A stretch of DNA of 62,620 bases, taken from positions 1-62,620 of the forward strand of contig JAAVZT010000013.1 of the NCBI GenBank assembly GCA_022791775.1. The letters are read 5' to 3'. The notes beneath the pieces were generated by a model. That model ran no database searches. It was given only the letters and a program-made list of their open reading frames with translations, and had not been told where the DNA came from. Positions 30,677 through 34,724 of this stretch are shown in pieces. The number at the start of each line of letters is the position of its first letter. The first letter of the stretch is position 1. Source of the DNA: Bacilli bacterium. Lineage in GTDB: Bacteria; Bacillota_I; Bacilli_A; RF39; UBA660. Both the position numbers and the translations under genes were made by a program.

Positions 30677-31858
30677 ATGGAAATAAGTAATGTTTACATA
30701 GGTGGCTGGTTTCAACGAACCATGTTACAATTGTCGGAAATTTATGATTTTTTAAGAGAATGTAAAACTGAGTTAAAATTAGATCAGGAGAAGTTGCAAG
30801 AGCATCGTAAAAATTTAGAATTCGGAAATATTGAATACGGGGTTGCTGGGGAAGAATTTTTAACTTTTTCAACAGCATGTGGAATTCAAGTGAAAATTTT
30901 TGAAGATGGATTAATTGTGTTGAATAATCAAAATGTATCTGAAAATACTTTGTTTGCTGATATAGATAAAGTTCAAGATTATTATGAAAATAAATTGTCT
31001 CCGGCTTTGAATTATCTTTTTAGTTTGGGTGCTCCAGTTCCAAAAGAATTGGCGAGTATTGAAAGTGTTTATCCATATTTTATTGTTTGTGATAATTCTT
31101 CTCAAGAGCAAATTCATGAAATGTTGGTAAAAACAGAAAAGCAAAAATATTTTGAATTTAAAAATGATAAATACAGTGTGATACGAGGAGATAAGTATTA
31201 TTTTATAAATAATAAGTCTAAGTCGAATGATGAAATAGAACGATATATTGAAGAGCAGGTTTTTATTCGAGAATTTAAGGGGCAATTGCATCGTTATTTA
31301 AATATGCATCGAATTATTTGGGAAAAAATTGATGAAGTAAAAAGTCACATAAAAGTAAAAGGTTCTGAGATTGTGAAGTTTACTACAAAATTAGAGGGTT
31401 ATGCAAAAACCATTAATTTGATTGATGGAAGAATTAAACAGATGAGTACTTATATTTCAACTCGTGAAAAGATTGCGAAAAGTGATCAAGAATTAGCAGA
31501 GTTTTTAGAAATATCTGGTTATCGATATGAAACGTTACGAGACACGTTACAATATATTCAGTATTTATGGTCTATGACACAAAATTATGTATCTGCAGCT
31601 CAAAAGCAGTTCTCATCTTTAAAAGCAGATGTTACAAGTAAATCGGTAAATAGTTTAACCATTGTTACTTCTATGAGTGCTGGGGCAGCTATTCTAGGTT
31701 TATTTCAAAAATCCAAGCCAACTTTTTCGATGTTTGGAATCCTTTATTTCTTTTTATTGGCTTTTATTGGTTACGGGTCTCAAAAGTTATTAGGCTATAT
31801 TTCCAATCGTCAAAAATATGATGTGACCGATATAGATTATGAAAAAGATATCAAATAA
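30677..31858 (+). CDS. Unknown membrane protein with C-terminal hairpin of two TM helices (393 aa)
   Basis: No family is recognised with confidence. Residues 1-200 are a mixed alpha/beta cytoplasmic part; residues about 205-320 are long charged helices; two hydrophobic segments follow (about 322-342 and 349-369) with a short polar tail. That layout, long helices leading into two closely spaced C-terminal TM segments, is like CorA-type channels or Rmd1-type proteins, but the GMN motif of CorA is missing. It follows a GNAT gene by 8 bp and ends in a terminator that overlaps its stop. Confidence 0.72.
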   Translation: MEISNVYIGGWFQRTMLQLSEIYDFLRECKTELKLDQEKLQEHRKNLEFGNIEYGVAGEEFLTFSTACGIQVKIFEDGLIVLNNQNVSENTLFADIDKVQDYYENKLSPALNYLFSLGAPVPKELASIESVYPYFIVCDNSSQEQIHEMLVKTEKQKYFEFKNDKYSVIRGDKYYFINNKSKSNDEIERYIEEQVFIREFKGQLHRYLNMHRIIWEKIDEVKSHIKVKGSEIVKFTTKLEGYAKTINLIDGRIKQMSTYISTREKIAKSDQELAEFLEISGYRYETLRDTLQYIQYLWSMTQNYVSAAQKQFSSLKADVTSKSVNSLTIVTSMSAGAAILGLFQKSKPTFSMFGILYFFLLAFIGYGSQKLLGYISNRQKYDVTDIDYEKDIK

Positions 31859-31873: not shown

Positions 31874-31973
31874 GTTATCTTTTCTAGAAATATAACAAAA
31901 TAATATGTAAATTTAGGATAGGAAAAATATGGTAATTTTGTTATAATAAAAAATATAAGTGGGGGAAATTATT

Positions 31974-33872
31974 TTGTCTAATAAAAATATGATGATTCAG
32001 TTTAAAAAAGATGTTATTGTTTTAAAGGAGATTTTAGGTGCAGATGTTTTTGGAGCATTACTTTTTTTGCGTTATTTTTCTTCTCCATTAGATTTTGTCC
32101 AACTTTCTTTTGATAATATTGATTACGTTGATAAGGATACACCATGGAATTTTGTCGTTCGGTCTTCAAGAGAAGATTTGCCTTTACTTTTTTCAAATTT
32201 TCCTACTTTTTTTAAAGAGCATATAAATTTTGAACAGTATTTTCCTTGGCAACAAATCCAAGAGATAAAAGAAAAAGATTGGAAAGATGGAATCAGTTTT
32301 TTTTCTCATTTTTCGTTTTCTTTTAGTCATTTTTCTCAGTGGTTTTCTATTTTAGAACAAATTTTTTTTTCACGAGTAAGATTAAATGATTCATTTTTAA
32401 AAGGATTTCAAAATATTGATTTAAATGGAAAAGTTATTTCTGATCTCTGTGTTCAGAGTGGTCAAATTCTTTCTCAAATAATAAACAATAAGAAATCTAA
32501 TGTTTATTTGGCGAGCTCTCCAACTTTAATCGGATATGTTTTGAGTGAAATACGGTTTCGTACGATGCAGCAAAATGTAATTTGGAAAAATTTGGAACAA
32601 AATTATGATTCCCTAACTGATAAAGCAGACTTTATTGTATTGAATCCTCCTTTTAATCAAAAAACAGAACATCCGTTTGAAAGAAAAATACGATGGAAAT
32701 ATGGTATTTCGAGTAAAAATGTCAATTTTTTATGGATTCAACATGCTTTGGCTCATTTAAAAGAGAATGGTACCGCAGTCATGATATTACCAAATTCCAC
32801 TTTAACTACTATGATAGATAATGATTATCAAATTCGACGAAATATGATTTTAGATCATCAAGTAGAAGCCATTATTACATTTCCTGCTCATTTGTTTTTA
32901 GGAACTTCAATTCCTTTTTGTCTTTGGATTTTTCATGAGGATGTGAATCGTGAAGAAATTTTAATCATTGATGGAATGAAAGCAAGTACTAAAATTCATA
33001 ATTATTTGGATGCTATTGCGTCATGGATTTGGCAGTATCGTAATCATACCTTAGCTTCTCAGAATGAATTATTTACTGTGGCTAGTTTTATGGATATCGC
33101 TCGTCATGATTTTGTGTTAAGCCCTAATCTATATATGAATCATGCTAAAATAAAGTTAGATTTTTCTAGAAAACAACTTTTTAAAGAACTATTAAAAGAG
33201 GTAAATCGAAAGTATCCTTCTTTTGGAAAGTCGATCCACTGGGATGAGTTATTGGAACAGGTTTATCATTGTAAGTGGAATACTCATTTTTTAATGGATT
33301 ATTATGTTTCATCAGGTGGCATTCTAAAAGAAAAGTATTTTTTTGGAAGTGGTACGCCTTTATTAGATGTGAAAGATGTTGTACATTCTGATTTTCTTGG
33401 TAGCGATTTTTCGAAAAAAGTCCAAACTACAAGGGAAGAAGAGAGGAAATACAATATTTTAAAAGGAGACCTTTTTTTCAATCGAACTAGTGAGAATGTA
33501 AGAGAGCTAGCAATGTGTAGTATCGCACTTTATGATCAAGAAGGTGTTTATAGTAGTTATATTAAACGGTTTCGGCCGATTGAATCTAATTCTTTTGATT
33601 TATATTATTTAAGTGGATTTTTCCGAAGTGCTGTTTATCGAGATGAAATTGAAAAGATCGTTACAGTATATACTACTAGAGTGAGTATGGATCAAAAGAA
33701 ATTTTCTAAGGTTGTTTTGTATGTGCCAGAAAAAGAGATTGAATTAAAAATTGCGGAAGTTATTTGTACTTTGAATCATTATGATTTGAATGCTCATACT
33801 CTTTTAAAGCAGTTTCAAGATCTGTTTATTGAGCAATTTATTACGTATCCAATATGGAATGATAGGAGGTAA
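31974..33872 (+). CDS. N6-adenine DNA methyltransferase (HsdM-like) fused to an HsdS-type recognition domain
   Basis: The 632-residue protein has a helical N-terminal region, a methyltransferase core and a C-terminal TRD-like domain. Motif IV is intact (VLNPPFNQ, near residue 225), followed by NFLWIQHALAHLKENGTAVM and FLGTSIPFCLWIF as in type I HsdM. Motif I (usual DPxCGSGG) reads SDLCVQSGQ, lacking the key Gly, which may weaken SAM binding. From about residue 430 the pattern matches half of an HsdS subunit, with LKGDLFFNRTSENVRE and YLSGFFRSAVYRDEI. The start chosen is TTG 31974 behind GGGGGAA; GTG 31959 overlaps that site. The gene is 6 bp before an HNH nuclease gene, so the two look like one restriction-modification-like operon. 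Confidence 0.82.
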   Translation: MSNKNMMIQFKKDVIVLKEILGADVFGALLFLRYFSSPLDFVQLSFDNIDYVDKDTPWNFVVRSSREDLPLLFSNFPTFFKEHINFEQYFPWQQIQEIKEKDWKDGISFFSHFSFSFSHFSQWFSILEQIFFSRVRLNDSFLKGFQNIDLNGKVISDLCVQSGQILSQIINNKKSNVYLASSPTLIGYVLSEIRFRTMQQNVIWKNLEQNYDSLTDKADFIVLNPPFNQKTEHPFERKIRWKYGISSKNVNFLWIQHALAHLKENGTAVMILPNSTLTTMIDNDYQIRRNMILDHQVEAIITFPAHLFLGTSIPFCLWIFHEDVNREEILIIDGMKASTKIHNYLDAIASWIWQYRNHTLASQNELFTVASFMDIARHDFVLSPNLYMNHAKIKLDFSRKQLFKELLKEVNRKYPSFGKSIHWDELLEQVYHCKWNTHFLMDYYVSSGGILKEKYFFGSGTPLLDVKDVVHSDFLGSDFSKKVQTTREEERKYNILKGDLFFNRTSENVRELAMCSIALYDQEGVYSSYIKRFRPIESNSFDLYYLSGFFRSAVYRDEIEKIVTVYTTRVSMDQKKFSKVVLYVPEKEIELKIAEVICTLNHYDLNAHTLLKQFQDLFIEQFITYPIWNDRR

Positions 33873-33878
33873 TTTGGA

Positions 33879-34724
33879 ATGGAGTTTTCCTTGGAGAGTC
33901 AAAAACGTTTAGTTATTTTATTTGCTCTTTATGAGTTAGGTGGTTCGGCAAAGCGTATTAAAGTTTTAGAATATATTCAGAGTCAATCATATTGGCTTAA
34001 AAATGATCAAAATGATGAGACGTTGCAAACTAGAAACGAAAAAAAATGGCGGAATGATTTGTCTTTTGTACGTGAACATTTGGCAAGAGAAGGGTATATG
34101 ACAAGATTACTTCCAGGTATTTGGTCTATTACAAATAAAGGGATGAATTATTTAAATCATATCTTAATTCAGAATTTGCGAATGGTAAATTATGATCCTT
34201 CTTTTTTATTATCTAAAATTTGTTTTGACAAAATTCGACAGTATCGAATTCAAATGGAACAATCAGCCGATTCTATTTTTTTAAGTCAAGTATATTTTGA
34301 TAATTTTAATAGAGAAAATAGCAATAATTCTTCTGTACCAAAGCGACGAAATATTTCGAAGACGGGGAGTTATCCACGTAGTTCTACTTTATCTAGAAAA
34401 GCACTGCAATTAGCGGGACATCGTTGTACTATTCATTTAGAGCATCCTTCTTTTTTACGTCGCGATTTGGATGTCCTTTATATGGAACCTCATCATTTTA
34501 TTCCTATTGAAATGACAGCTTATTTTCAGGTTAATTTAGATGTATTAGATAATATTTTTTGTTTATGTAGTAATTGTCATAATCAAATTCATTATGGAAG
34601 AAAAGAAGATGCTCGTCAATTAGTAGAAACTTTATTTTCTCTTCGCAAAGACAAAATTTGTCAGATGTTAGGTCGCGAAATTACGTTACAAGAATTATAT
34701 CAAATTTATGATATAGCTGATTAG
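33879..34724 (+). CDS. Winged-helix plus HNH endonuclease, partner of the methyltransferase fusion
   Basis: The 281-residue protein has an N-terminal winged-helix part (residues about 8-95, with LGGSAKRIKVLEYI and GIWSITNKGMNYL) resembling the Mrr N-terminal domain. A variable middle follows, then an HNH nuclease at about 188-262: GHRCTIHLEHP, YMEPHHFIPI, NIFCLCSNCHNQIHYG. That gives the zinc Cys pattern C...C..C and the HH plus N plus H catalytic frame. A strong AGGAGG site and a 6-bp gap tie it to the methyltransferase-TRD gene. It would be the cutting subunit; cleavage specificity would come from the partner. No typical HsdR helicase is present. Confidence 0.85.
   Translation: MEFSLESQKRLVILFALYELGGSAKRIKVLEYIQSQSYWLKNDQNDETLQTRNEKKWRNDLSFVREHLAREGYMTRLLPGIWSITNKGMNYLNHILIQNLRMVNYDPSFLLSKICFDKIRQYRIQMEQSADSIFLSQVYFDNFNRENSNNSSVPKRRNISKTGSYPRSSTLSRKALQLAGHRCTIHLEHPSFLRRDLDVLYMEPHHFIPIEMTAYFQVNLDVLDNIFCLCSNCHNQIHYGRKEDARQLVETLFSLRKDKICQMLGREITLQELYQIYDIAD

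Follow-up and report, generated by a model that had tools for sequence, protein, structure and literature searches.

A rare two-gene module joining a methyltransferase-specificity fusion to an Mrr_N-HNH nuclease, with one copy that has lost its SAM pocket

Two adjacent genes in a 62,620-nucleotide stretch of DNA from a Bacilli bacterium (here termed the window) encode a methyltransferase-specificity fusion (M~S) and a winged-helix (wH)-HNH nuclease (R). They form a genuine, rare and conserved module of two genes, known in its general kind, with one surprise, a very probably methylation-dead copy with a preserved nuclease. The analysis established the conserved pairing, the domain make-up, a SAM-pocket loss specific to the window copy, and conservation of its target recognition domain (TRD) and nuclease. 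We lean, with confidence a little better than even, towards a restriction-modification module whose nuclease, in the window, either requires M~S bound to DNA or lies silent in this strain.

Domain make-up and known counterparts

The M~S ORF starts at a TTG preceded by a GGGGGA Shine-Dalgarno sequence (an in-frame GTG is also present at 31959), the nuclease ORF starts at an ATG preceded by AGGAGG, 6 bp after the M~S stop, and neither is interrupted by a stop or frameshift (Table 1). The Pfam N6_Mtase match to M~S is confined to residues 206-394, i.e. motif IV onward; the 1.11-Mb assembly has no other PF02384 match. The PADLOC type I MTase profile extends over residues 216-625 (7e-42) and many PADLOC type I specificity profiles match residues 434-618; Pfam Methylase_S matches residues 484-602 under its cut-off in the window protein (1.3e-3) and above it in three relatives (L054, L056 and L058). 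In the 281-aa protein, the Mrr_N match is above cut-off, and the best matches in the fold search with its low-confidence model are to winged helices only. The initial annotation had proposed an M-S fusion with its own HsdS-type TRD, followed 6 bp later by an Mrr_N-like/HNH endonuclease, and the profiles agree with both assignments.

Table 1 Features of the gene pair (window coordinates)
Feature	Position	Strand	Evidence
M~S fusion, 632 aa: gamma-class N6-adenine methyltransferase-like, one C-terminal type-I-like TRD, C-terminal helix	31974..33872	+	Pfam N6_Mtase 5e-31; PADLOC MTase_I and Specificity_I; nearest solved folds to the model 7EEW and PacII M subunits
Degenerate SAM-binding segment, residues 129-204: GDFYTP absent, DPCCGSG to DLCVQSG, YGQT to YLAS	32358..32585	+	Alignment with 8 full-length relatives
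Motif IV NPPFN, intact	32643..32657	+	N224-N228 invariant in the alignment
TRD, residues about 435-585	33276..33728	+	Type I specificity profiles; 32/38 family-invariant columns retained
C-terminal helical region, candidate dimerisation helix	33729..33869	+	Model helices 587-601 and 609-631; role by analogy with type I S subunits
wH-HNH nuclease, 281 aa	33879..34724	+	Mrr_N 2e-9; HNH 1.2e-3; McrA HNH (sequence match) 2.8e-5
Mrr_N winged-helix domain, residues 5-95	33891..34163	+	Pfam; wH folds are the top structural matches to the low-confidence model
HNH core, EPHHFIP ... LCSNCHNQIHYG	34485..34598	+	McrA-type HNH match; conserved in all complete relatives

As had also been noted at the outset, no HsdR, helicase or separate S gene lies beside the pair in the window, and no HsdR is conserved beside the relatives. 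The S part is one TRD fused to M, as opposed to an HsdS that is a separate subunit with two TRDs; Pfam finds no nuclease domain on M~S, and nuclease, methylase and TRD are split over two genes, unlike in type IIG enzymes. To this extent the initial annotation was right that the layout departs from type I and type IIG, but it does not fall outside known kinds, since single-TRD M~S gamma-class MTases with separate type II nucleases have been described (M.XmnI, M.DrdI and M.XcmI; PMC3874165; see also 7EEW). These homodimeric enzymes share one catalytic domain, one type-I-like TRD, a C-terminal helix and a separate nuclease gene with the pair studied here; they differ in that the partner here is an Mrr_N-HNH protein and in that the SAM motifs of the window copy are lost; the likeness drawn here is one of domain layout. 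Held against type II systems with an M~S gamma-class MTase, the pair has the fused single TRD and the separate nuclease; motifs X, I and II are lost in the window copy, and motif I is present in 11 relatives.

An engineered fusion of HsdM to half of HsdS is a working enzyme that still restricts with HsdR (PMC6158711), and HNH is a recognised catalytic class among type II nucleases (PMC4081073). The top fold and profile matches, the intact MTase of Vibrio vulnificus YJ016 (PDB 7EEW) and the PADLOC type I MTase profile PDLC03019, are of similar length and carry M and S in one chain; they are labelled type I, and identity by fold alignment is 13%. AhdI (type IIH, or type 1.5) also has a type-I-like MTase, a stand-alone nuclease and no translocase, but its M and S are separate subunits. 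To our knowledge, the AhdI nuclease is not of the wH-HNH kind. A winged helix plus HNH in 224-283 aa and a McrA-type HNH core are shared with the wH-HNH type IV nucleases (SruGXI and others) and McrA; those wH-HNH enzymes are known to be 6mA-dependent and mostly stand alone with no MTase nearby (PMC11037411), whereas the window-type nuclease always adjoins M~S. The pair does not belong to MADS defence (NCBIfam MAD2 equivalog score of 17 bits against a cut-off of 720). No named family pairing M~S with Mrr_N-HNH was found in Pfam, NCBIfam, PADLOC or the literature searched, REBASE lying outside this scope, and the pair is therefore only provisionally new.

The window also encodes, at 30677-31858 and thus just before the module, a 393-aa coiled-coil protein with hydrophobic C-terminal segments; it has no confident family match and resembles the antiphage protein Ppl weakly (E 0.026).

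Distribution and conserved pairing

The nuclease was used as query against 84,980 species genomes and returned 24 loci, 12 of which hold full-length relatives (L051-L062) with 38-56% identity in the best segment. Their hosts are mostly Lachnospiraceae and other Clostridia or gut-type bacteria; L062 belongs to the same family as the window. An M~S relative lies directly upstream of the nuclease in 11/11 full-length relatives with upstream sequence (L052, whose locus begins near a contig end, was left out of the count), with gaps or overlaps of a few bp, which rules out chance adjacency. The initial annotation had named homologues whose two genes are never adjacent as a finding that would count against it; the reverse is the case. 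The M and HNH trees are broadly concordant: the same two main groups recur, and the window and L058 sit on long branches whichever protein is used. Of 397 genomes sampled in one Clostridia family, the query genome itself was the sole carrier; in the window's family (145 genomes) only the window had the module, and in the order (288 genomes) only the window and the genome of L062 did. Phage, plasmid and viral collections gave no full-length match, and an origin there was rejected. Judged from these comparisons of relatives, which are few and mostly from MAGs, the module is rare, conserved in its pairing and probably horizontally distributed.

Two sets of HNH proteins were considered as family members and set aside. 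Plasmid HNH proteins beside sil operons have only the HNH domain in common with the module and come without M~S. On the Enterobacteriaceae plasmids inspected (L046, L047 and L048), the HNH protein adjoins a silver/copper resistance operon, has about 39% identity in the HNH domain and has no methylase alongside. The HNH protein of G1150 (L138), in the same family, has a different N-terminus and also lacks M~S. No empty site was demonstrable by comparison with the genus relative G633, which has only a DUF1287 gene in common. As regards neighbourhoods, the intact module of L054 has paired type I hsdM and hsdS genes beside it on the other strand (L054:1076-4422), which suggests a defence island there. 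In L051, a PLDc_2-ResIII helicase-type protein is encoded about 2.5 kb downstream of the module (L051:10359-12869) and a fragmentary N6_Mtase lies upstream (L051:3173-3616).

SAM pocket, specificity and gene breakage

Motif X, GDFYTP in the relatives (GDVYTP in L058), is deleted in the window; motif II, YGQ(T/A/C) or FGQ(T/A) in the relatives, is YLAS; and motif I, DPCCGSG in 11/11 relatives readable for M, even in the frameshifted L053, L057 and L061, is DLCVQSG in the window alone. Compensating frameshifts were considered as an explanation of the odd motif I and rejected: the other two frames, read by eye, contain neither FYTP nor DPCCGSG. The initial annotation had recognised a degenerate motif I beside an intact NPPF (224-227) but not that it is confined to this copy; by the alignment, it is a derived loss in the window copy and not a module feature. 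Its suggestion that methylation is weak or lost understated the case, as motifs X, I and II are all gone and the window M~S very probably cannot methylate.

Family-invariant columns were counted in the window against the relatives, and in each relative by leave-one-out. In the SAM segment the window retains 9/19, against 19 of 19 to 22 for each relative; elsewhere it retains 32/38 TRD, 24/25 wH and 39/44 HNH columns, and in motifs IV-VIII 12/38 are also altered. Codon-position GC is coding-like even in the degenerate SAM segment. Because the few retained SAM columns stand against high TRD, wH and HNH retention and coding-like GC, the SAM-pocket loss is specific and the remainder of the window pair looks constrained. 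L058, the most divergent relative, whose overall divergence equals that of the window, has the reverse pattern (SAM pocket 19/20, TRD 37/53, wH 25/36, HNH 44/52). AlphaFold confidence is poor around the SAM pocket, consistent with its loss, but this is weak support because the alignment is shallow.

The window TRD is 42-50% identical to those of seven relatives and 32% to that of L058, against 30-36% for the catalytic domain. In 36/36 pairs the TRD shows greater similarity than the catalytic domain (mean ratio 1.2), whereas S was less alike than M in a small control of three type I pairs. Such conservation, unlike in type I, implies that specificity is fixed and recognition unable to drift, as it is in type II systems, whose nuclease has to match the site, or would be in a complex whose two proteins read one composite site.

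Both genes are open in five relatives (L051, L054, L055, L056 and L058). R is broken and M intact in L059, L060 and L062, both are broken in L061, and M is broken and R intact in L053 and L057, the window being the third M-dead/R-intact case. In type II systems, loss of M first should kill the host if the nuclease acts alone. Because M-dead/R-intact copies are as frequent as R-broken/M-intact ones, the split suggests that R is not autonomous, although the numbers are small, the genomes are mostly MAGs and some breaks may be assembly errors.

Working model and alternatives

In intact members, M~S, probably as a dimer, would recognise a fixed bipartite, presumably palindromic, site through its TRD and would methylate it, with adenine the predicted target; the downstream-encoded wH-HNH protein would then cleave DNA that lacks the mark. 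In the window copy, the SAM pocket is erased and the TRD, motif IV and whole nuclease are retained, which would leave the host's own sites unmarked. Because the host carries the nuclease without methyl protection, this enzyme most likely lacks autonomy and is either active only with DNA-bound M~S or silent here. As the initial annotation suggested, the fused protein may guide the HNH cutter.

Avoidance of bipartite palindromes, including 640 of the 3+3 form, was examined in 727 kb of host (the window plus stretches L092-L132), and none was convincing after codon-phase correction. TGAA-N12-TTCA had seemed an avoided target (5 observed against 36 expected), a depletion that disappeared with that correction, and the 15/640 palindromes occurring fewer than 5 times were all GC-only and gave no candidate target. 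Lack of site avoidance cannot tell a silent from a dependent nuclease. The same 727 kb shows strong depletion of CTTAAG (67, with 311 expected) and of TCTTAAGA (4, with 56 expected); restriction pressure of another kind or the usual avoidance of palindromes may be the cause.

The 12/38 altered columns in motifs IV-VIII and the lack of clear avoidance of any bipartite palindrome weigh against the model. The fixed TRDs argue against dependence on M~S, as they are expected if the nuclease reads the same site alone. The family also decays often (three R-broken/M-intact relatives and one with both broken), and the window copy may simply be dying. Both points fit an orthodox type II system in decay, whose nuclease, reading its site alone, was already silenced by unseen promoter or missense changes before M lost its SAM pocket, leaving a remnant. 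Breakage is indeed frequent (L053, L057, L059, L060, L061 and L062), and every change would be neutral once R is off; but the window ORFs lack stops and frameshifts, coding-like GC persists even in the SAM segment, and invariant TRD, wH and HNH residues are retained where a decaying pair should relax throughout. We consider this account possible, though on the doubtful side.

A type IV-like nuclease, whose Mrr_N winged helix and McrA-type HNH read methylated DNA so that loss of the neighbouring MTase ends a self-conflict, seems very improbable. Both domains do resemble type IV modules, 6mA dependence occurs among wH-HNH enzymes, and wH nucleases in some cases adjoin frameshifted MTases (PMC11037411). 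However, five relatives (L051, L054, L055, L056 and L058) carry both open genes side by side, which would be suicidal if the mark were cut; the winged helix of this protein is Mrr_N, stand-alone wH nucleases mostly lack a nearby MTase, and this nuclease does not stand alone, M~S adjoining it in 11/11. A functional pseudo-methyltransferase, with the window M~S recruited to bind DNA independently of SAM and to guide or restrain the HNH nuclease, would account for a localised SAM-pocket loss with constraint elsewhere and for intact ORFs and ribosome binding sites. This reading concerns a single lineage, however: neither the 288 genomes of the order nor the 145 of the family yielded a second SAM-dead full-length copy, and we rate it unlikely. 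It is equally a long shot that the SAM-dead M~S now serves purely for DNA recognition, placing or licensing the separate wH-HNH nuclease, with self-protection achieved without methylation.

If the nuclease needs M~S, the module would be a minimal translocase-free system in which a type-I-like recognition core is coupled to an HNH cutter, and would mark one stage of the type I/type II transition that PMC6158711 discusses. Because the SAM-dead copy is a natural one, whether a host survives the uncoupling of recognition from methylation can be put directly to the test.
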